From a virus: DNA of 64,000 bases. The number at the start of each line of letters is the position of its first letter. Position 1 is the first letter of the stretch. Below are positions 1-54,780 of the stretch, piece after piece. The DNA lies in the IMG/VR virus record IMGVR_UViG_3300036795_000241, positions 1 to 64,000 of that record, one strand, 5' to 3'. The translations under genes and the position numbers were made by a program. Below the pieces are notes generated by a model. It did not search any database. It was not told where the DNA came from and saw nothing but the letters and a program-made list of their open reading frames with translations.

Positions 1-3000
1 CATACTGGTTCAGTATCGAAGCCGCATACGCTTGTGCGACCTGTGCGGAATGCGTTGTCGCACCCGAATTACCGAGATACGCGCTATTCGCGGCAGCTTC
101 CTGTGCCGTTTGCACGCCGCCCTTAATCGCGTCCTCGACGCTTTGAATCATCGCTTTTACGGAAAGCGAGTATTCGTTCAGAGTCCAGTTACCCAAGCCC
201 GGAACCGAACCACCAAATTGACCGACCACTCCACCGGCCGCATAACCGGGAACGCCTGCGGCGGCAAAGACTGGGGCCAACACCTGGCTTGTCTCCTTGG
301 AGACCACCGTCTCACCGGGTTCTGCAAGCAAGGGGACAATGTCCCCGCCTCCGTAACCGGGAATGACCCCGCCTAGTGCCCGCTTCAATGGCGACGGGAG
401 GTTTGAGCTTCCGGCAGCGAATACCTGCTGCTGCTGAACGGACCACGTACCCTTACCCGTAAGCCCGATATTCGTGTTCTCGTTCGGCGGGATATGCTGC
501 AGCTTCTTGATGTAGTCATCGACCAACCCGGTAGCCGTTTGCGCCTTTACTCCGGACTTCTCGAGGTCCGTGATCAATTGCGCGCGGGCCGGGCCATACG
601 TAATCGCCGTCGCTCCGTGCTTCTGTACTGCGGCGGCAAGAATGTTCATATCGTTCTTCGCCGATGGCGCACGGCTCAGGATACCCTGGATGTCGGCATT
701 AAGTGACGCACGGGCACCATGCGTCTGGTTCATCGTTTGCGCACCCTTTACGATGCTATTCCACAGCCGCTCAGCATCGTCGTGGCTCAGATTAAGCTTC
801 TCAGCGAATACGATGAATTCGTTCTTCGCCTGATCGGTATTGCCCAGGGTCGTTAGCAGCTCACGCGCCAGCCCCTTTGCCGAATTCTGCACCGCCGTAA
901 TGTTATGCGGCGTATTCTTCATTACGGTCGCGAAGTTGTCGAACGCTTTCTGACCGCCACCAGCTTGGAAGATCGCCGCAGCCATTGCCGAGTTCAAGTT
1001 GTTATTCAACGCGTTGGCGAGGTTCTTCATGTCCTGCGTCAAATTCGACGAGTCTACCGTCAACGTAGTCGTAATGTCGTCGAGGTTCTTCGCCGCATTC
1101 TTCGTATTTCCGAGCCAGCCGGTCAACGACTTCAAGCTGTCGGGACCTCGGTACCCGGCAAGCTGAGCGAATGCGTACAGCTGAGCGGTGTTCTCCTTGC
1201 TGCCCTTCGCCATCGGAATAAGCTGCGCAACCAGGTCTTTACCCGCTTGCGATAGCATATTCGTACCCTTGGCGCCTAGTCCAGCTGCACTCGCTTGATT
1301 CGCCAACGCATCGTACAGCGCTCCGGCACTGGACAGGGACGACTGCCAATCCGAACGCAACGTCAAGCTTTGCGAATTCAGCCCGGTAATCGATGACCCG
1401 GCAACGCCGGCACTCGTCCCGACCTTAGCTATCGACTGCTCGTACTTGATGAATGCCGAGTCGCCGCCGGACACGGTCTTCATAAACGCATCCCAGCCGC
1501 CAGTTATCGCCGTAATCTGCGATTGCTGCTGCTCCGCGGCGAAGGTAACGGCGTCAACGGCACTGGCGAGGATACCGCCCTGTATCGACATCGCCGAATA
1601 GCCGGTGATCAGGTTGTCGACCTTCTGCTTCATCACGCCGTAGCTGTCGCCAGCCTTAACGTTCGCCAGATCCATCAACGCGAGGGATTGCGAATACGTG
1701 AAGCCCTGCGAGATCAGGTTGCCCGTTTCGTGGAACAGACGATCCTGCTCACCGGACAGCTTTATGATCTCGCCGGTATACGCCTGGACATCGGAACCCT
1801 GGCCGAGCTGAAGCTTAGTAGCTCCGAATGCCTTTACCGTCGAATTCCAGAATCCGGCGGCAGCTTCGGTAAGCCCGTGGAACCACTGGGACAGTCCGCT
1901 GCCCCACTGCGTAACGTCGCCGATGTCCTTGAACGACGACACGACCAGTCCGACGCCGTGGCCTAGCTGATTGGTCGAATTCGCGAACGCCTGATTCGCT
2001 TGCGCTAGGTGTACCGGTACCTGCGTGATCTGCTCATCGAGCGACTTAATGTCGGTATTGATCGCGAGAATAGCCTGCGAAGCGTTCAGCTGTCCGAGAC
2101 CCGTATCGAGACTCGAGATGAACGAATGCGTTGCGCTATCGGCCTGCGTCATCCACCAGACAAGACCACCGATAGCTGCGGCACCGACAATTGCCCAGCC
2201 CCACAGCGGTAGCGCACCCATTGCGCCGAGGATTCCGCCGGTCTTGCTCGTTTCGCTACCTAGCTGGCCGGCTTTCGAACGCAGGTCTTCCAGCGGAACC
2301 AATGCCGCACGCCCGGCATCGCCGAATAGCCCGAGTCCGGCCGCGAGACGAGCCGTGGCCTGTACGCCACCGAACATCGCCGTAGCGAGATTCGTGATTC
2401 CGCTAGCCGCTAGCCCGCCCCACAGCATGAAGCTGTGCAACGCTAGCACGCTGTACAGAATCGGCGTCGGTAGCTTAGTGATTACGTCAAGTAGCTGCGA
2501 GGCGCCAACGAGTACGTCACCGAGAAAGTGCGCCGTACCGGGATCCGCCTTGATCAAGTTGCTAAACGCGAGGCCGACGTTGTCGATTATCTGCATGAAC
2601 TGATGCAGGAAGCCGACACCGGACTCGAGAATCCCGCCCATATGCGACTGCGAATTCGCCCAGATATCGAGCTTCGCGATCCACGTATCGAATCCGCCGA
2701 CAACCTGCTGCGCAACCGTGGAGAAGGTCGACCCTTGCTTATTAACGAGGTTTAGTGCGCCGCCGAAGATTTCCAGCGTTCCCGGTGCAACGGCTTGCTG
2801 CAGTTCGTGCAGGTGACCCGTGAGTGGCGGTATCGTCTGGTCGAGAGCTTTGCTGGTGTCGTGAATCGACAACATCTGCGTATAGATGTCGTGTGCCGCC
2901 GGCTCCATTGCGATCAAGCCGACGGTCAACGCAGCACTTGCCGCGGCGACCGCAATTAGCGATTCGAAGACCGCATCCAGCGCGATATGCCATAGCGGAA

Positions 3001-3649
3001 CGACACCGACGGACGGTATCTTCCCCAGTGCACCGCCCCACAGCGTTACCTCGCGCGTGAGGAGCCCGAATGCGCCGCCCTGCTGATTCGCCTGCTGCGT
3101 ACTCTGCCGCTGCCAATCGAGGAACGAACGGAAGCCGTTACCGAGGTTCCCGAGGCTATTGTCGAGATTGTCCGCCGAGCGGCCGGCTTTGTCCGTCTCC
3201 GTGGCGAAATCGGTCAGCTGCTGATCGGCCTGCCCGGCGCCACTTACGGCGAGATTCACCGTTTGCGTACTATCGCCGGGCTGCCAGTTCATCAAGCTTT
3301 GCAGCGAGTTAATCGCACCCGTACTTACCGTCGGGTTGATTACGAGGCTCTGCTCGAGATTGCGCCGCAGCTGATCGTATAGTGCGTCCGTGCCAACTAG
3401 CTTAGTATCGGCAACGGAGGTATCGAGGTTAAGCTTGTTCGGAGCATTTACGTCCGCCTGGAATACGTCCAGGCCAGCCTGCATCTGCGCCAATCGCGCT
3501 TGCGCAATCGACGTATCGAGGCCGAGCTTAGCTTGGTATTCGTTGTTCTCGAACGACATACCTTCGCTGCGGGCCGCCGCCAGATCGGCTTGAAACTGCT
3601 GCCGATTAAGAATCAGCCTCGCTTCAATTGCGCCCGCATCGAATGCCAC
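1..3649 (-). CDS. tape measure protein (partial, C-terminus off the window)
   Basis: Sets tail length and occupies the tail lumen during assembly and DNA delivery. The frame is open from a GTG at 3649 down to base 1, at least 1216 codons, so the C-terminus is outside the window. Its GTG shares one base with the TAG of the preceding chaperone frame (3651-3649), the normal position for this gene. The first ~200 residues are rich in Gln, Asp and Ala and look helical; around residues 400-500 (bases about 2150-2450) long Gly/Ala-rich hydrophobic stretches appear, as is usual in siphoviral tape measures. The call rests on size, position and composition; no enzymatic domain was recognised in the part read. 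Confidence 0.9.
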   Translation of the reverse strand, partial: MAFDAGAIEARLILNRQQFQADLAAARSEGMSFENNEYQAKLGLDTSIAQARLAQMQAGLDVFQADVNAPNKLNLDTSVADTKLVGTDALYDQLRRNLEQSLVINPTVSTGAINSLQSLMNWQPGDSTQTVNLAVSGAGQADQQLTDFATETDKAGRSADNLDNSLGNLGNGFRSFLDWQRQSTQQANQQGGAFGLLTREVTLWGGALGKIPSVGVVPLWHIALDAVFESLIAVAAASAALTVGLIAMEPAAHDIYTQMLSIHDTSKALDQTIPPLTGHLHELQQAVAPGTLEIFGGALNLVNKQGSTFSTVAQQVVGGFDTWIAKLDIWANSQSHMGGILESGVGFLHQFMQIIDNVGLAFSNLIKADPGTAHFLGDVLVGASQLLDVITKLPTPILYSVLALHSFMLWGGLAASGITNLATAMFGGVQATARLAAGLGLFGDAGRAALVPLEDLRSKAGQLGSETSKTGGILGAMGALPLWGWAIVGAAAIGGLVWWMTQADSATHSFISSLDTGLGQLNASQAILAINTDIKSLDEQITQVPVHLAQANQAFANSTNQLGHGVGLVVSSFKDIGDVTQWGSGLSQWFHGLTEAAAGFWNSTVKAFGATKLQLGQGSDVQAYTGEIIKLSGEQDRLFHETGNLISQGFTYSQSLALMDLANVKAGDSYGVMKQKVDNLITGYSAMSIQGGILASAVDAVTFAAEQQQSQITAITGGWDAFMKTVSGGDSAFIKYEQSIAKVGTSAGVAGSSITGLNSQSLTLRSDWQSSLSSAGALYDALANQASAAGLGAKGTNMLSQAGKDLVAQLIPMAKGSKENTAQLYAFAQLAGYRGPDSLKSLTGWLGNTKNAAKNLDDITTTLTVDSSNLTQDMKNLANALNNNLNSAMAAAIFQAGGGQKAFDNFATVMKNTPHNITAVQNSAKGLARELLTTLGNTDQAKNEFIVFAEKLNLSHDDAERLWNSIVKGAQTMNQTHGARASLNADIQGILSRAPSAKNDMNILAAAVQKHGATAITYGPARAQLITDLEKSGVKAQTATGLVDDYIKKLQHIPPNENTNIGLTGKGTWSVQQQQVFAAGSSNLPSPLKRALGGVIPGYGGGDIVPLLAEPGETVVSKETSQVLAPVFAAAGVPGYAAGGVVGQFGGSVPGLGNWTLNEYSLSVKAMIQSVEDAIKGGVQTAQEAAANSAYLGNSGATTHSAQVAQAYAASILNQY

Positions 3650-4056
3650 TATCCCAGCTCCGACCAGTTGACTTTCGCAGTGGTAACCGTTCGGCGACTC
3701 ATCCGGCTAAGGTCGACATTCCGTGCCGCTTGCTGTTCTGGCGAACGGCGTACTGCAGCGCGTTGCGGCTGTGGCTGACCTTCCGGACCGGCGATGACTC
3801 TCTCCTGCATCCATCCTTCGATATACATCTGCTTTTCGTACCACGGCAACCGATCCCACTGCTTCGGGCTAAGCTTCAGAAGCCGCCGTGCGAGGTAGTA
3901 GGTTAGGCGCCGTTCACCATACGCAGGTTCGGTCGAGTCGGCAAATCGACGCCGCTTACTTCCGGGCGCAGCTCCCGCTGGAACCACTGGAAGAAGGCGA
4001 TCTGAATCCGCGCCGGAAGCTTCTTCAACACGGCTTCGCTCGGCTGATTCGTACAC
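3649..4056 (-). CDS. tail assembly chaperone, frameshifted second part
   Basis: Overlaps the 3' end of the 3903-4328 gene by 154 bases in the -1 frame and stops exactly at the tape measure start. This is the arrangement of lambda G/GT-type chaperones, which bind the tape measure during tail assembly. The frame is open from an upstream TGA near 4112 to 3649, so the slip must lie between there and 3903. The 135-residue GTG-initiated ORF is probably made mainly as an extension of the upstream protein. The C-terminal ~90 residues (KQWDRLPWYEKQM region, then Arg/Gln-rich) resemble second-part chaperones. I found no canonical X XXY YYZ heptamer, so the slip mechanism is unresolved. Confidence 0.75.
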   Translation of the reverse strand: MYESAERSRVEEASGADSDRLLPVVPAGAAPGSKRRRFADSTEPAYGERRLTYYLARRLLKLSPKQWDRLPWYEKQMYIEGWMQERVIAGPEGQPQPQRAAVRRSPEQQAARNVDLSRMSRRTVTTAKVNWSELG

Positions 4057-4328
4057 GCCTTGGCGTAGACCTTGCGGGTACCGGCCAGCATCTCCTCGAA
4101 GACGTCACCCGGCGTCAGCTTCGCCATTGCTTCCGCAATGTCCTCCGGCGTTGACTCGGCGGTCAGTCCGGCACGGTGGCGCGCGACCTTTTCCGAGAGA
4201 TCGCGAAGCTCCTTGTAGAACGTCGCGATCTGCTTGTCAGTCGGCTCCGGTACCGTACCTTTCGGTCCGTCGAAGTCGCTGAAGTCCCAGTCCATCGGCT
4301 TTACGACGGACCCGGCGTTGAATCCCAT
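3903..4328 (-). CDS. tail assembly chaperone, first part
   Basis: A 141-residue acidic protein (starts MGFNAGSVV) between the tail tube gene and the tape measure. Position, size and the overlapping -1 frame downstream identify it as the short form of the tail assembly chaperone pair. It contains a predicted helical segment with a TPEDIAEAMAKL stretch at about residues 61-72. ATG at 4328 follows the tail tube stop by only 12 bases, with GGAGG-type Shine-Dalgarno bases (complement of cctatcaggaggtcg) around it. Translation ends at TAA 3905-3903; a fraction of ribosomes is expected to shift -1 before that. Confidence 0.8.
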   Translation of the reverse strand: MGFNAGSVVKPMDWDFSDFDGPKGTVPEPTDKQIATFYKELRDLSEKVARHRAGLTAESTPEDIAEAMAKLTPGDVFEEMLAGTRKVYAKACTNQPSEAVLKKLPARIQIAFFQWFQRELRPEVSGVDLPTRPNLRMVNGA

Positions 4329-4340
4329 CTTCGACCCCTA

Positions 4341-4964
4341 TCAGGAGGTCGCCGCTGCGGTGATGTCGATGATTTCCATCTCCGACAGGTCGCAGAGCGC
4401 GTTGAGGGTGATCGGGTACAGGCGCTGCGAAGCTGCACGGCGGAAAGCCGTCTGCACCTGACCGGCGGACTGGATCTTCGGGATGTAGAAGACCCGGGGA
4501 TAGCCCTGCTCGTTGCTACCGAGAATGGCGGCCGCGAGGACCGAGAAATTCGACGAGAGCTTCAGCACGGTCTTTCCGGGCTGTGCCGCACCGGCCGCGG
4601 TAACGGTCTTTGCTCCGCCGCCACCGTATGCGAGGTTGATGTTGTCGATGGTCTCCTCGGAAAGTGAGGTCGTGATCTGGTACGTCGCCGTGTTCACGAG
4701 AGCCGCAACCGGAATCGGCTGCTCCTCAACCTGCAGGTCGGTCATCGACGGGTTGAACGTTGTCGTAACGCCCTGACTCGTCGCTCCGGCATACCGCCAC
4801 GGTCCCGGCGTAACGACCGCCGCCCACTTCGTTGCGTCGCCGAGATCCGAGTCAGCGGGAAGTGGCGTCCCGAACTGCGCCGTGAACAGGTACCCGACGC
4901 CGTATAGGACGTTCTCGGTATCCCAGTCCGGCGGCAGAAATTCCGTGCCGACGTTAGCCGTCAT
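4341..4964 (-). CDS. major tail tube protein
   Basis: A 207-residue protein rich in beta-type sequence with alternating hydrophobics and many Thr/Val/Ser, located between the tail terminator genes and the chaperones, which is the standard place for the tube subunit that polymerises around the tape measure. Gly/Ala-rich segments (AYGGGGAKTVTAAGAA, about residues 112-127) look like surface loops. ATG at 4964 overlaps the upstream gene by 11 bases. Family call is from order, length and composition rather than a motif. Confidence 0.8.
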   Translation of the reverse strand: MTANVGTEFLPPDWDTENVLYGVGYLFTAQFGTPLPADSDLGDATKWAAVVTPGPWRYAGATSQGVTTTFNPSMTDLQVEEQPIPVAALVNTATYQITTSLSEETIDNINLAYGGGGAKTVTAAGAAQPGKTVLKLSSNFSVLAAAILGSNEQGYPRVFYIPKIQSAGQVQTAFRRAASQRLYPITLNALCDLSEMEIIDITAAATS

Positions 4965-15049: not shown

Positions 15050-16613
15050 CTCGCATTGAGCCCTCTAGCTGCGATCCGCCACCTAGCGCTTCCGGGGTCA
15101 CGCCCATCGCATCATTTGCTCCCGGTGGCTGACCGTTAACCTGTCCGAGGACGGTAAACGTTGCATCCAGTGCGCCAGCTAGCTCAGCCGCCGCCTGTCC
15201 CTCCGGAGTTGCGCCGGACGGGGAATCGAGCAACGCCTTCTCCGCGCGCACTTTCGCGCCATTCGTGATCATCTGCGCGACCTGGCCCATCGGCAAGTCG
15301 AATTTGGTCGCCACCTTAGTCGCCAGCATGTCGACAAACTGGTCGGGAATGCGCAGTGCCGGTGCCTGCACCATCGCCGTAAACGTCGCAATCAACTGCG
15401 CGGCATCCGTATCACTAATCGGTTCCGCGATCAACTTCGGAATCGCCTTCGACTTACCGCGATTCAGTACGACAATCGGTGCGGATACGTCATGCGTGAA
15501 TGACGTGCAAATCTCATCGATAACGCCTTGCCGGGACTGCTGGAAGAACTGCGTCTGGCTCTCGGACAACGCGTAAGAACCACGGCCGAGCGCTGCGGCA
15601 CTCGGGAGGTTCAAGAAGCCGGCGAGAACGCTACCGGTCTGGTAGTTGTCGAGGAAATTGATCGCGGCCGTGAATTGCGCCGCACCCGATCCGGCCGCTT
15701 CGATAACGTCGAATAGCTTTCCGCCCTGCGGCGGACGAACGAAGCCACCTACGGCGGAAGATCGCATGGCTGCCAATGCGGCTGCGGCATCGTCCGCCTG
15801 ATCCTGGTCGGAGCCGTACACCGCCAATTTCGGCAACGACTGGTTCTCGAGGAACTGGAACCAGAGGAACAGCAGCTTCTGCTTCTGCTTATAGCACCAG
15901 TACGCAATGTCCATATCCGAGATACCGGTAAGTGGCGCACGGTGCTGCCCGTGGATATAGACGTACGATCGTATCTTCGGGATATCGAGATAGCCGGTGA
16001 AGTCCTTACCGTACGCCTTTTCGAAGTTCTGCTTACCTTGTCCCGGACTCGAATAGAACCACCAGGCTCGCTGACGAAACCCGTTCATTCGTGCCGTGTG
16101 CTCGTCGCGTCGTACTTCGCACGTACTCGGAGGACGCCATGCGAGATGCTGTAGTCGTACGGTTTCGTCATCGTCAAGCCCCCACTGCTTTTCGAAGAAG
16201 GCTTTCTTGTAAACGGAACCGCCGGATAGCTGACCGAGAATCAGCTGCATTCCCGGATCGAGACCGCCGGATTCAGCTGGCGTATACAGCTGCTCTTCGA
16301 CCAAATCGAGCTCGCCGGTATCGCCTTTCTGTCCCTCCAGTGAGAACTTCGTTCCGCGTATCGGAAGCGTGAGCACTTGTTCGACCTGGCGTGCGGTACC
16401 GTCCCGCGACAGCATAGTGTCGATATCGCGAGCGCGCCATTCCCCGATCTCGAAGACGTCACCGCCGCTAAACGCGGAGAATAGCCGCGTATACATATCG
16501 AACGCAGTACCGATCTCACCGCCGAGAAGCTGCTTCCGATCCTTCTTCGACAGTTCCGGGAGGCTAACGCCACCGTGCTGGTCCAGCCGCACTACGTTCG
16601 ATCGGCTTACCAT
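15030..16613 (-). CDS. portal protein (DUF935 / Mu gp29-like)
   Basis: A 527-residue portal forming the dodecameric DNA channel at the head vertex. It lies directly after the large terminase and before the MuF-like gene, the order found in Mu-like portal modules. Supporting segments are WRARDIDTMLSRDG and LTLPIRGTKFSLEG near the N-terminus, a DIAYWCYKQKQKLLFLWFQF segment and a helical C-terminal region typical of the DUF935 family. ATG 16613 is chosen because GGAGG lies 12 bases upstream; a TTG at 16625 is in frame but too close to it. Starts overlap the terminase end by 7 bases. Confidence 0.85.
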   Translation of the reverse strand: MVSRSNVVRLDQHGGVSLPELSKKDRKQLLGGEIGTAFDMYTRLFSAFSGGDVFEIGEWRARDIDTMLSRDGTARQVEQVLTLPIRGTKFSLEGQKGDTGELDLVEEQLYTPAESGGLDPGMQLILGQLSGGSVYKKAFFEKQWGLDDDETVRLQHLAWRPPSTCEVRRDEHTARMNGFRQRAWWFYSSPGQGKQNFEKAYGKDFTGYLDIPKIRSYVYIHGQHRAPLTGISDMDIAYWCYKQKQKLLFLWFQFLENQSLPKLAVYGSDQDQADDAAAALAAMRSSAVGGFVRPPQGGKLFDVIEAAGSGAAQFTAAINFLDNYQTGSVLAGFLNLPSAAALGRGSYALSESQTQFFQQSRQGVIDEICTSFTHDVSAPIVVLNRGKSKAIPKLIAEPISDTDAAQLIATFTAMVQAPALRIPDQFVDMLATKVATKFDLPMGQVAQMITNGAKVRAEKALLDSPSGATPEGQAAAELAGALDATFTVLGQVNGQPPGANDAMGVTPEALGGGSQLEGSMRGDLQRG

Positions 16614-18415
16614 TCGCTTTCCCAACCTCCACTATCGGCGTACTGATGTACGTTCGTCAGTGTCGATCCCCTTGCGCTCAACGCTAGCTGCTCCATTTGC
16701 GCACGGCGACGTTGCACTGGCGGAGGAGCCCCCTCCTGATACGGCGGGGTGTCGTCCCACTCGTCATTTCCGTCCATCGCATTCGCATATTCGTGCACCG
16801 TGGCTTTTGCGGTTAGCGAGGACTCGGGCCAGAACGACATCACCGCTGCGTCACCGCAGTCAGGTGACCGGCGCAACCGGGTTACGACCTTTTCCTTCGG
16901 CTCGACGGCGATTTTCGCACCCGTCTTTACGCTCCAGGTCGGTACCGTGAGGTCCGTCTTGAGGTCCTCATCCGGCGGGAGCATTAGGTCGTCCGGACCG
17001 TTTATCGGATCGAGCAATTCGCGGAGATTCCAGTACGCTGCAGAACGCTTATTCGCAAACGTAAACTCGGACGTGATATCGCGCATTCCCTCGGCACTGG
17101 ACGCCCCGATGTACGCGCGCACCTTTAGCCGCAATCCCCGTAGCCGATTGACCACGCCAGCTCCGATACCGGCACCGTCCACGATCGCAATCGAACCAGC
17201 GTTTTTCTGCAGCCGACCGGCAAGTCGCATCGAAGTGGTTTCGGTATCCTGCTGTGCGTCACGAATCATGTCGACAAGGCAATGCCCGACTCGCTTAGTG
17301 AGTACGGTTTCGTCCTTGCCGGAGTCCGCAACGTCGCAGCTGTAGATCTGCCGTCCTTCGACCTTGGGTCGCCCTTGCGCGTCCCATTCCTCCCAGCGCT
17401 GCATCGCACGCTCGACCCACGAAAGCGGGATGACACCTTCCGACCCTTCTTCTGGCGACCTTCCCCGTACTTTGCTCCACCACAAGGCAGGTTCGCGCCA
17501 CCGGACCTTCCCGTCTTCATCGGTGAACCGGGTGACGCCCCATCGCTGCATTCGCTCAGCGACCCATTCTGGCGACAGCAGCAAATCTCGCCATTCCGCG
17601 CGGACGCTCTTCGGGATATCCGCAAGCGACTGATCCGCAAACGGAATACCGTTGTCGCGCATGTACCGGCCCAGCTCGGGATACGGGGCTACTCCAGCGC
17701 GAGTGAAGTTCGGGGTGAATAGACCGTCAATCCGCACAACGTTCCAACCGGAACCGGGGCGGATGACACGAGCGAAATGGCTATCTGCTGAGTCCGGGTT
17801 TCCGATGGCGAGAACTCGTGCATGACCACTGGAAGCGAGGGTATCGGCGGCAATCCAAAGCTGCTCATCGATACCGTCCGCTTCGTCAAGTACGATGAGA
17901 ATGAATCGGGCGTGTATCCCCTGAAATGAGGCGATCTCAGTAGGTCGGCGGCCGAACGCAATTAGCTCATCTCCAATGCGCCACTGGGGGTAGCCGCTTC
18001 GGGTGAGCCTTCCCCGCAAGCCGGCCAATGCGTGTACCCGGTGTAGCTCGCGCCATAGCACGGACTCGATCTGCGCGCTGGTCGGCGCCGTGGTAACTAC
18101 GAACGCGGAGCCAACCGTATGCGAATCGATAAAATGCCCCGTCTTCAACGCCGAGAAGAACGACTTTCCGGCGGAGTGACAGGACGGGACCGCGGTGTAC
18201 CGGTTGCGAATGATCGAGTCGTTGATCATCTTCTGCGCGGGATTCAACCAGGCGCCGACACGATCTCGCGCCCACGTCTCGAACGAGTCGGTCGATCGCG
18301 GCTTGAACATATCGGCAGCTAGCATTATCGGATCGACATCGCCACGAAACGCAGCGTTCTTAGCCGGGTCTAGCGGAATCTTCCGCCCGGCTACACTTAC
18401 GTTCGCCTTCGGCAC
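16607..18415 (-). CDS. terL: terminase large subunit
   Basis: ATP-driven DNA packaging motor and headful/cos nuclease, 602 residues. Walker A is PSCHSAGKS (77-85), Walker B LIVLDEADG (173-181). The RNase H-like nuclease begins near residue 375 with YSCDVADSGKDET (first Asp), continues with IAIVDGAGIG and ends near SPDCGDAAVM (Asp pair). GTG at 18415 follows GAGGAGAAC. It is the first gene of the leftward virion operon; the small subunit sits about 850 bases upstream beyond two rightward genes. Confidence 0.93.
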   Translation of the reverse strand: MPKANVSVAGRKIPLDPAKNAAFRGDVDPIMLAADMFKPRSTDSFETWARDRVGAWLNPAQKMINDSIIRNRYTAVPSCHSAGKSFFSALKTGHFIDSHTVGSAFVVTTAPTSAQIESVLWRELHRVHALAGLRGRLTRSGYPQWRIGDELIAFGRRPTEIASFQGIHARFILIVLDEADGIDEQLWIAADTLASSGHARVLAIGNPDSADSHFARVIRPGSGWNVVRIDGLFTPNFTRAGVAPYPELGRYMRDNGIPFADQSLADIPKSVRAEWRDLLLSPEWVAERMQRWGVTRFTDEDGKVRWREPALWWSKVRGRSPEEGSEGVIPLSWVERAMQRWEEWDAQGRPKVEGRQIYSCDVADSGKDETVLTKRVGHCLVDMIRDAQQDTETTSMRLAGRLQKNAGSIAIVDGAGIGAGVVNRLRGLRLKVRAYIGASSAEGMRDITSEFTFANKRSAAYWNLRELLDPINGPDDLMLPPDEDLKTDLTVPTWSVKTGAKIAVEPKEKVVTRLRRSPDCGDAAVMSFWPESSLTAKATVHEYANAMDGNDEWDDTPPYQEGAPPPVQRRRAQMEQLALSARGSTLTNVHQYADSGGWESEW

Positions 18416-30126: not shown

Positions 30127-30432
30127 ATGCCGATATTCACCTGGTCGCATCGGCCAGCCGCCGTTCCGGGCAGCGCACTGGAGGCGACGCTGTACATCGC
30201 CCGCGCGCAGTTCGCCGTTGAGCGCTTTATCGCCGGCGACCCGCACTTCACGTGGATCGCGGACTACGCCACCCGTATCTGCGACGATTGCAGTGAGATT
30301 CAGACCGCCGCCGACGGGAATCACGTGGTCTACCGCGATCTGCTGATCGTCGGGTGCGAAGGCTACCGCCACCTTCCGCCGCAGTTCCTCGGGCTGGACG
30401 GTAGCAACTGGGAGGACTGGACGAAGTCGTAG
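30127..30432 (+). CDS. small protein, unknown
   Basis: 101 residues, ATG 30127 one base after the previous stop. A central helix (LEATLYIARAQFAVERFIAG) and CDDCSE (a possible metal pair with a later Cys). Its TAG (30430-30432) is immediately followed by the hammerhead-like RNA. No family recognised. Confidence 0.6.
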   Translation: MPIFTWSHRPAAVPGSALEATLYIARAQFAVERFIAGDPHFTWIADYATRICDDCSEIQTAADGNHVVYRDLLIVGCEGYRHLPPQFLGLDGSNWEDWTKS

Positions 30433-30499
30433 GTGACACCGAGGACGAAACGCCGAAAGGCGTCCACGGCTTAGGTGGCCGTGCCGACGAGTCCGTCAC
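30433..30499 (+). ncRNA. type II hammerhead ribozyme-like RNA
   Basis: The RNA folds as a hammerhead opened at stem II. Outer stem GTGAC/GTCAC (30433-30437, 30495-30499), stem II GGAC/GTCC (30443-30446, 30491-30494), core GAAA (30447-30450), stem III ACGCC/GGCGT with a GAAA loop (30450-30463), cleavage base C30464, stem I CACGGC/GCCGTG with a seven-base loop (30465-30483), then the second core C-C-G-A-C-G-A (30484-30490). All core bases match the consensus except position 4, where C replaces U. Predicted cleavage is after 30464, between two genes. Confidence 0.65.
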
Positions 30500-30523
30500 T
30501 TTCCGCGACAGGAGCAACACGCA

Positions 30524-31090
30524 ATGAGTACTACGCCCACACCGAAGAGGCACCACCGCATCCGCAACACCGTGATTGGCGGTATCGTTATCGGCGGCTT
30601 CGCCATCGCGATGGCGAACACTGGCGGAAGCAGCCAGTCGCCGACCGCCAAGTCCTCCGTCGCGCCCGTTTCCGTGTGCAAGACGCCGAGTCCCGTGAGC
30701 CCGGGAACGGCGTGTGCGCAGCCGAAGAAGGCGTCCGCCACACCCGCGGCGGTTACCGTTCCGACCACTCCGCCTCCGGCCCCGGCGCCGAAGTCCGACA
30801 CCGTAACGTACCAGGTGACCGGCACCGCTCCGGCCGATGTCACGTACGGACCGTCCGGCTCGAACTCGACCGGTTCCGTCCCGATGAGCACGACGGTGAA
30901 CATCCCGGACAAGGCGCCGGCGTACTACGCGATCAGTGCGCAGCTGCAGGGCGACGGCGCCGTGAGCTGCGTGATCCGGGTCAACGGAAAGGCGGTCTCG
31001 GTCGGGCAGGCGTCCGGCGGCTACAACATCGCCACCTGCGAGATCACCCAGGGCCTGTTCGGCGGCTGGGAGGACGCGAACGCTGGCTGA
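30524..31090 (+). CDS. membrane-anchored MmpS-like surface protein
   Basis: 188 residues. A short basic N-terminus and one membrane segment (about 14-31, TVIGGIVIGGFAIAMAN), a Pro/Thr/Ser-rich linker (40-90), then a beta domain: VTYQVTGTAPADVTYGP, NIPDKAPAYYAISAQL, GAVSCVIRVNGKAVS, and ATCEI, with two Cys likely disulphide bonded. This is the pattern of MmpS-type extracytoplasmic domains of mycolic-acid and streptomycete bacteria. GACAGGAG precedes ATG 30524. A surface role such as superinfection exclusion is a guess. Confidence 0.65.
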   Translation: MSTTPTPKRHHRIRNTVIGGIVIGGFAIAMANTGGSSQSPTAKSSVAPVSVCKTPSPVSPGTACAQPKKASATPAAVTVPTTPPPAPAPKSDTVTYQVTGTAPADVTYGPSGSNSTGSVPMSTTVNIPDKAPAYYAISAQLQGDGAVSCVIRVNGKAVSVGQASGGYNIATCEITQGLFGGWEDANAG

Positions 31091-31124: not shown

Positions 31125-31153
31125 TTGACATCCGCGAAGAACTCTGCTAGACT
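31125..31153 (+). promoter_or_regulatory. promoter P11
   Basis: TTGACA (31125-31130), 17 bases, TAGACT (31148-31153); GAGAGGAGG then ATG 31184. Confidence 0.9.
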
Positions 31154-52609: not shown

Positions 52610-53428
52610 GTGAAGCTTGCGCACATCGTGCCAATCACGATGCTTACTGCGGTCCCGCGAACCGCGTCGGCGCACCTAACGATTACGAATCTCGTGCTTA
52701 GCTGTCCGCGCTATCAGCGATTCTATCGTAAGCGAGCGCACGCGGGTGACCTAGTCATTCTCGACAATCCCGTCCACGAGAATCAGCCAATCGATATCGG
52801 TAGCTGGCTCGAGGCAATCTCGATGCTCGAACCGACGGTGGCGATTGTCCCGGACGTAATTGACGATATCCCGATGACGGTAAACCTCGCGCGGCACGCG
52901 GCGGGAATCGTATCCTCGCGGAAAGCAATCCTCCCGCAACCGGAGCTAATGGCGGTTCCGCATGGTCACACGCATGAAGAGTTCTACCAGTGCGCCGCTG
53001 AGCTGATCAAGATTCCCGGGATAACGTGGCTCGGGATTACCCTGGAACGGCGATTGAACGATGATCAACTCGCGCTAAAGCGTAGGCGTGAACGGCTGCG
53101 GATGCTCTCGTACGACCCGCTATTCTCGGGTACGAAGATCCACCTTCTCGGCGTTTCCGAGACCGCGGAGGAGCTCGGTGACGATTCCGTATGGGAACGC
53201 GCGGTCAGCTGCGACACTTCGAAGTTCGCCGTATGGGCGCTTACCCGCAATCCGGTTGCGCCACCGGTTCCGCTTAGCACACCGTATCCCGGTCGCGAGA
53301 TATTCGGCGGGAGCTACAATTACTACTGGGCGCACGGTTTGTCGTGGCCGGACCGGCGAAAGTTCACGCAGAATCTCGCCGAATGGTCGCGCTATGCCCA
53401 GCGATACGACAGGAGCACGAACGAGTAA
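52610..53428 (+). CDS. dpdA: DpdA-type DNA guanine transglycosylase
   Basis: 272 residues from GTG 52610. Paralog of tRNA-guanine transglycosylase that exchanges guanine in DNA for a 7-deazaguanine. Candidate nucleophile region GDLVILDNPVHE (Asp52) and IVPDVIDDIPMTVNLARHA (Asp82) fit the DpdA pattern seen in phages with modified DNA. GITWLGITLERRLN is the later substrate-binding region. It ends at the TAA that overlaps the QueC start. Confidence 0.85.
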   Translation: MKLAHIVPITMLTAVPRTASAHLTITNLVLSCPRYQRFYRKRAHAGDLVILDNPVHENQPIDIGSWLEAISMLEPTVAIVPDVIDDIPMTVNLARHAAGIVSSRKAILPQPELMAVPHGHTHEEFYQCAAELIKIPGITWLGITLERRLNDDQLALKRRRERLRMLSYDPLFSGTKIHLLGVSETAEELGDDSVWERAVSCDTSKFAVWALTRNPVAPPVPLSTPYPGREIFGGSYNYYWAHGLSWPDRRKFTQNLAEWSRYAQRYDRSTNE

Positions 53429-54780
53429 TGTCTGGAATCTTTGCGGCGATGGTGCATAGCCAGAGCGTGCCCTCGGCGCCACTTGAGCGGCTGGTCAAGG
53501 GTTCGCAGAAGCGCGGTAACGATGGCGTTAGTGTCGTAACGCTTAATCGGTCGTTTAGCCGCGTTTCGCGGAATCGCACATGGTACGACGTTAACGCGAA
53601 AACGGGCCGCGGAGTATTCCCGCCGGGCGTGTATGGCGTTCTCGGGTGTGCGTATTCCCGTCCCGCCGCGGGTGACCACGTTGCGCCGCCGTTCATCAAT
53701 CGCGCTAGCTCGTGGTGCGTAACGGTCGATGGGGCAATTACGAACTGGTACGGACAGCAGCTTGCCGAACGGCTCCTCGTTGACGAGTACGAGGACTGGA
53801 CCGAATTCGTCGAGGACCTCGAAGGTCAGTTCGCGATTGTCGCGATGCATCGTGACGACCCACGTACGCTGTATTACGGCTGCAAGGCTAAGCCGCTCTA
53901 CATGCTTTACGACCCGATCATGCACGCCGTTTACATCGCACAGCAGCCGGAGTACTTCTACGGGATGTACGATGAGTCGCGGACTCCCCGTCCAGTGCGG
54001 CTGGGCCCGTATTCCTGCGGCGAAATCGCAGCCGATGGAAAGGTCCGTCCGGCGCATCCGTTGCGACACCGTTACGGCTCCGGTTCGCTGATGCTTTGCG
54101 GTGGCGGTCTCGACAGCACCGTAGCCGCGTGGGATAATGCGCAAACGTATGCCGATGACACGCTGCTAATGTACGTCGATTACGGAGCGCGGGCGCGCGT
54201 GAAGGAGTGGCACGCGACGCAGTCACTGGCGGCCGCAATGGCCAGCCCGCACAGCGGATTGGTCGGCTCCACTGAAGCGGTAAAGGTGCCCTTCGATTTC
54301 TTTCGTAAGCATGTCGCCTCGCCACTGTTTCCGGGTGGCAAACCGGTATCTGAGCACCCTCAGCCCGGACAGGCTACGGAGTGGGTACCGGCACGGAATA
54401 CCGTACTAATGGCACTGGCGGTGTCGTTTGCTGAATCTAACGGTCTGGCGCGGATCGTGACCGGGATCAATATGGAAGCGGCTGCCGCGTATCCGGATAA
54501 CGAAGAAGAATGGCACCGTCGCTGGGAGCAGCTGCTACCGTATGCGGTAGGCGATGGCGCACAGATCGACCTGGAATCACCGCTTCGCGGTATGTCGAAA
54601 GCGGACATCGTAAGGCTCGGTGAGACGCTAAAGGTACCGTGGGGCACGGTCGATAGCTGGTCCTGCTATAACGGCGGGAAGAATCACTGTGGCCAGTGCT
54701 CCAGCTGCCGAGCTCGTCGTGGCGCATTCGTCCGCGCGCAGATTCCGGACGTTACGCGATACACCAGGGAGCCGAAATGA
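53428..54780 (+). CDS. queC: Gat-QueC fusion, 7-cyano-7-deazaguanine synthase
   Basis: 450 residues. N-terminal class II glutamine amidotransferase-like part (MSGIFAAM, DGAITNW) and C-terminal QueC with the PP-loop LCGGGLDST (223-231) and a zinc knuckle CYNGGKNHCGQCSSC near 420-434. QueC uses ATP and ammonia to make preQ0 from the QueE product. Class II amidotransferases need a Cys at residue 2; here it is Ser, so the ammonia-donating half may be inactive or changed. ATG 53428 overlaps the DpdA stop. Confidence 0.9.
   Translation: MSGIFAAMVHSQSVPSAPLERLVKGSQKRGNDGVSVVTLNRSFSRVSRNRTWYDVNAKTGRGVFPPGVYGVLGCAYSRPAAGDHVAPPFINRASSWCVTVDGAITNWYGQQLAERLLVDEYEDWTEFVEDLEGQFAIVAMHRDDPRTLYYGCKAKPLYMLYDPIMHAVYIAQQPEYFYGMYDESRTPRPVRLGPYSCGEIAADGKVRPAHPLRHRYGSGSLMLCGGGLDSTVAAWDNAQTYADDTLLMYVDYGARARVKEWHATQSLAAAMASPHSGLVGSTEAVKVPFDFFRKHVASPLFPGGKPVSEHPQPGQATEWVPARNTVLMALAVSFAESNGLARIVTGINMEAAAAYPDNEEEWHRRWEQLLPYAVGDGAQIDLESPLRGMSKADIVRLGETLKVPWGTVDSWSCYNGGKNHCGQCSSCRARRGAFVRAQIPDVTRYTREPK

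Follow-up and report, generated by a model that had tools for sequence, protein, structure and literature searches.

Does a 67-base intergenic segment of a virus genome encode a self-cutting RNA when one base of its core departs from the consensus? The segment lies at 30433-30499 on the + strand of the window, the whole stretch of 64,000 nucleotides analysed here (positions 1 to 64,000 of IMG/VR record IMGVR_UViG_3300036795_000241), and is predicted to be a type II hammerhead. Stems I and III are closed and stem II is open, which is the type II arrangement. The three stems occur in hammerhead order in both the fold and the alignment to our covariance model R1, the GAAA core and the A15.1-U16.1 pair are present, and position 17 is C, i.e. 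H and not G. The exact consensus C3 U4 G5 A6 N7 G8 A9 was not matched: position 4 is C, the other bases being as required. Folded alone, the 67 bases gave an MFE structure that was exactly the hammerhead (-27.2 kcal/mol, z -2.2, 4 of 200 shuffles as stable); in 161 nt of context the MFE fold retained the hammerhead, with an energy no better than that of shuffles. The earlier note had described this hammerhead element by element, read its second core as CCGACGA with C for U at base 4, and placed it directly after a stop codon and 24 bases before the next ATG; sequence and fold bear out all of this (Table 1). We add that the 5′ bulge and the stem II extension place the element in a peripheral subclass that recurs, and that C4 is common to many phages.

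Table 1. Features of the hammerhead locus, in window coordinates.
Feature	Position	Strand	Basis or remark
Upstream open frame, 101 aa	30127-30432	+	No family match
Upstream stop codon TAG	30430-30432	+	Sequence
Stem II extension, 5′ arm AGGTGAC	30431-30437	+	Pairs with 30495-30501; recurrent in subclass; first two bases are also the last two of the TAG
GTGAC segment of extension	30433-30437	+	Sequence
Stem II 5′ bulge ACCGA	30438-30442	+	CC common in subclass
Stem II 5′ strand GGAC	30443-30446	+	Fold and model R1 alignment
Core GAAA (G12, A13, A14, A15.1)	30447-30450	+	Model R1 alignment
Stem III hairpin ACGCC-GAAA-GGCGT	30450-30463	+	Fold and model R1 alignment; strands 30450-30454 and 30459-30463, loop GAAA
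C17	30464	+	Hammerhead position; predicted cleavage between 30464 and 30465
Stem I hairpin CACGGC-TTAGGTG-GCCGTG	30465-30483	+	Fold; loop subclass; strands 30465-30470 and 30478-30483
Loop I, 7 nt	30471-30477	+	UNNGGYR type
Core CCGACGA, C4 at 30485 replacing U4	30484-30490	+	Sequence; C4 recurrence
Stem II 3′ strand GTCC	30491-30494	+	Fold and model R1 alignment
Stem II extension, 3′ arm GTCACTT	30495-30501	+	Pairs with 30431-30437; GTCAC segment 30495-30499
Shine-Dalgarno AGGAG of downstream gene	30510-30514	+	Sequence; outside extension
Downstream open frame, 188 aa, ATG at 30524	30524-31090	+	Only phrog_8241, function unknown

Searched against Rfam 15, the window contained nothing at gathering level, and the locus matched no hammerhead even with a cut-off of E 10. 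We therefore built our own descriptor and covariance model. Model R1, trained only on 54 canonical U4 hammerheads from other viral contigs with the window excluded, scored the element at 53.8 bits (E 1e-17; this E-value is approximate because the model was only briefly calibrated, which leaves the bit score unaffected). The next match of this model in the 75.7-kb record had E 0.11, and a search for types I-III found no further hammerheads in that record. The search with the Rfam type II model that the earlier note proposed thus found nothing, the element falling below the gathering cut-off of RF02276 (Hammerhead_II), but the model built from U4 hammerheads recognized it. On both strands of 2.64 Mb, the type II descriptor gave 0 matches for 40 permuted cores vs 327 with C-any-GANGA; only the zero serves as a chance estimate, because these loci were chosen for hammerhead-like patterns. 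Rfam matches to Rev44, Actino-ugpB, c4-2 and CRISPR-DR33 were at chance level. Streptomyces phage hammerheads, canonical U4 members included, also scored below the RF02276 gathering score (loci L381, L382, L386, L387 and L294), and standard annotation therefore misses them. The standard model overlooks much of this hammerhead group.

Patterns with C at position 4 revealed C4 type II hammerheads in dozens of viral contigs. The strict C4 pattern, which did not demand stems I and III, yielded 33 distinct sequences; all three stems were present in 39/46 C4/U7 matches, 4/9 C4/C7 matches and 2/10 matches with C4 and A7 or G7. The least biased comparison drew on loci chosen for U4 hammerheads and on three stretches of Streptomyces phage DNA similar to the window, and contained 339 canonical hammerheads, 8 with C4 (4 distinct), and 3 in total for the 33 other single core substitutions. 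G17, which blocks hammerhead cleavage, was absent from this set, whose loci were chosen mainly for U4 hammerheads. Judged by these sequence counts, C4 is the one recurrent core change; a change singled out in this way is therefore not expected from random decay or sequencing error. An A4/G4 control, scanned with C7 only, matched two contigs, neither with all three stems (0/2). A genome-collection scan gave seven pattern matches, and all stems were present only in L290. Coupling of C4 to base 7 was rejected, since U7 dominates in both the U4 and the C4 sets (p 0.23). C4 and U4 hammerheads share one contig in L004 and in L124. In L124 (2786-3863) they lie on either side of one 132-aa open frame, and the proteins encoded downstream of the two look secreted when judged by eye; the 188-aa protein of the window may be of this kind too.

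Among public phages, the sequence nearest to the window element (82%) lies between genes of Streptomyces phage Wentworth and is itself a U4 hammerhead. In the stretches examined, Wentworth, Rooney, Lizz, Gibson, PHTowN, ShakeNBake, phiRKBJ001 and Dryad have five to eight type II hammerheads each, and the feature tables consulted do not label any of them as hammerheads. One C4 hammerhead occupies the same syntenic site in 8/8 of these phages and is conserved though its flanks vary. C4 is kept in phiRKBJ001, where a stem III pair has changed in a compensatory way, and in Dryad, where position 7 is A. Wentworth, phiRKBJ001, Rooney, Lizz and their relatives resemble the window in that some members have the same loop I, bulge and extension, and the same genomes hold the C4 hammerhead at another site. 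They differ from the window in having several ribozymes per 12 kb; moreover, their members with the window's periphery are U4 and pair the extension with the Shine-Dalgarno sequence. No close relative of the window element at the same locus was found. Since other phages repeat this change and conserve it, C4 appears to be tolerated in the core, and the window copy looks like a working variant, not a defunct one.

The periphery of the element was compared across 416 hammerheads. Of these, 26, the window included, have a loop I of 7 nt whose positions 4-5 are GG (consensus UNNGGYR). In this subclass, picked by loop I alone, CC occurred in the stem II 5′ bulge of 24/26 members vs 83/390 others, and a stem II extension of at least four pairs in 22/26 vs 37/390; these statistics treat related phages as independent, though they are not, and about six distinct downstream contexts are represented. 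The extension was specific within the subclass (21/26 under a slightly narrower rule, against a maximum of 16 in 1000 shuffles), and its arms covary between groups (CUCCAC/GUGGAG, UCCUCA/UGAGGA and UUCUCC/GGAGGA; AGGUGAC/GUCACUU in the window). Loop GGU stands opposite ACC (10) or GCC (8), and loop GGC opposite GCC (2); in the window, bulge bases ACC (30438-30440) are complementary to the GGU of loop I. Two members of the subclass are C4, the window and L266. The 3′ arm of the extension overlaps the Shine-Dalgarno sequence in most members but not in the window, for which a rule that this sequence is always locked in the extension fails. Pairing of loop I with the 5′ flank showed no excess in hammerheads at large; only the subclass with the 7-nt GG loop shows it. 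A pseudoknot of the kind described in PMC3088659, taken here as at least four pairs between loop I and the 3′ tail, is real class-wide (z 8.8 at 5 pairs). Such a pairing (AGGTG/CACTT) is possible in the window, where it competes with the stem II extension, and it is not clearly the solution used there. The contact between loop I and the 5′ bulge appears to fit the subclass better than this pseudoknot.

A Shine-Dalgarno sequence, a start codon and an open frame were found within ~60 nt downstream of 84% of U4 and 78% of C4 hammerheads vs 10.5% of random positions; median distances after stem II were 10 nt to the Shine-Dalgarno sequence and 22-23 nt to the start. The window hammerhead likewise lies just 5′ of both signals. 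These hammerheads look like mRNA leaders. The earlier note had termed the flanking genes early, which is plausible because replication-type genes (helicase, exonuclease, primase and polymerase) lie on the + strand of the window. Its description of the downstream gene as MmpS-like was not upheld: Pfam and NCBIfam gave no MmpS match. Relatives of the 188-aa protein were absent from the viral contigs and phages searched, and relatives of the 101-aa protein from the phages searched. A window protein encoded at 16607-18415 has ~40% identity to Streptomyces phage terminases, and the uncultivated virus looks like an actinophage.

Three other accounts of the element were weighed. It might be a decaying hammerhead, an inactive copy that has lost U4 and persists by descent; U4C is reported to lower activity in known hammerheads (PMC3088659), and the nearest phage relatives of the element are U4. 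However, the remaining core bases and all stems are intact in the window, C4 is nearly the sole core change seen, and the Streptomyces phages conserve it alongside the stem III and position 7 changes; we consider decay improbable. A normal U4 hammerhead in which assembly or sequencing has wrongly put C at 30485 would be compatible with a metagenomic record and with the U4 state of the nearest Streptomyces phage hammerheads. The C is plausible, however, because C4 occurs in eight separately deposited isolate genomes and dozens of contigs, and such an error is hardly credible.

An RNA that merely resembles a hammerhead and is not catalytic, e.g. a host nuclease processing site or a leader shielding the ribosome-binding site, would also be expected in a leader region adjoining a Shine-Dalgarno sequence, which the extension pairs in most subclass members. 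Catalysis, and not a plain hairpin, explains why unpaired core bases are fixed and why G17 variants are missing, and the fit to model R1 is a fit to a catalytic core; a non-catalytic structure therefore seems very unlikely. A type II hammerhead that would cut after 30464 is supported by the sequence, the structure, the model score, the gene context and the related loci. We regard it as probable that this type II hammerhead is catalytically competent, that its C4 core is natural and that it cuts the operon RNA.

In the transcript, the ribozyme would form the leader of the 188-aa gene and would cut the operon RNA at the predicted site. Because of the type II strand order, both RNAs would have structure-capped new ends: the upstream RNA would carry the stem III hairpin and a 2′,3′-cyclic phosphate at its 3′ end, and the downstream mRNA the stem I hairpin and a 5′-OH at its start. 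Stems I and II would be docked by the extended stem II and a contact between loop I (GGU) and the stem II bulge (ACC); such docking may offset the cost of C4. The proposed role is processing of the operon transcript into units with protected ends. The sequence, the fold, the model score, the placement ahead of a Shine-Dalgarno sequence and start across the class, the recurrence and conservation of C4 and the peripheral subclass are observations; cleavage and its rate, the loop-bulge contact, the protection of ends and the effect on expression are inferred.

Perreault et al. 2011 (PMC3088659) showed that phage type II hammerheads cleave in vitro, found in vivo activity for one triple arrangement, and proposed a processing role where hammerheads flank phage genes. 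The window element shares with the type II hammerheads of phages and bacteria in that paper and in RF02276 the strand order, the three stems, the GAAA core, A15.1-U16.1, C17, CNGANGA and placement between phage genes. It differs from them in C4, in the proposed contact with the stem II 5′ bulge instead of the 3′ tail, and in not being detected by the Rfam model. A viroid hammerhead with the same U4C substitution (Ambros and Flores 1998, as cited in PMC3088659) is reported to be considerably less active in vitro, yet active enough in vivo. Unlike the window element, it resides in a viroid RNA genome. The viroid is peach latent mosaic viroid, whose hammerhead has type III topology. Almost every CUGA change gave low activity when a type III hammerhead was mutated (PMC9901934). 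Because U4C reduces activity in vitro yet suffices in the viroid, and CUGA changes are low, the window element is by analogy likely to be active, but perhaps slow. The A6C hammerhead of phage Bcep176, which prefers Mn2+ over Mg2+ (PMC7151607), is likewise a natural variant lying between phage genes, at another core position. Since natural C4 members recur structurally intact and PMC3088659 mentions a U4C hammerhead that is active, the exact core consensus is no absolute criterion for a hammerhead.

Phage type II hammerheads, U4C from a viroid and phage core variants such as A6C were thus already known. In the part of the literature covered, we found no report that C4 recurs and is conserved among the type II hammerheads of phages and no description of the subclass combining loop I, 5′ bulge and extended stem II. 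The set found here includes culturable Streptomyces phages. It combines a ribozyme just 5′ of starts, a supposedly forbidden core base fixed at one site and, in one subclass, an extended stem II that often pairs the Shine-Dalgarno sequence; a link between ribozyme rate and gene expression is therefore directly testable. A bolder and rather doubtful idea, put forward tentatively, is that C4 type II hammerheads are a selected, slower ribozyme class and that members with the loop I-bulge contact and extended stem II are ribozyme-gated leaders. If so, self-cleavage would separate the 5′ arm from the ribosome-binding region and time the translation of single genes within phage operons.

Other features were observed near these hammerheads and elsewhere in the window. 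In L381 (5380-6006), a conserved noncoding stretch of ~620 nt ends right at the C4 hammerhead, and homologues occur in L382, L386, L387, L388, L180, L278 and L239. It has 90% mean column identity in the alignment and several helices with compensatory changes, without an Rfam match; it is a candidate large structured RNA whose 3′ end would be made by the C4 ribozyme. Dense arrays were found in L259 (nine type II hammerheads, 505-3420) and L281 (eight, 1611-4400), ~3 kb each. A sigma-70-type promoter (TTGACA-17-TAGACT, with TG before the second hexamer) lies at 31125-31153 of the window, just 3′ of the 188-aa gene, which may therefore be the last of its transcript. The window also encodes a QueC-like protein (53344-54780; Pfam E 8e-41), possibly reflecting 7-deazaguanine DNA modification by the phage.
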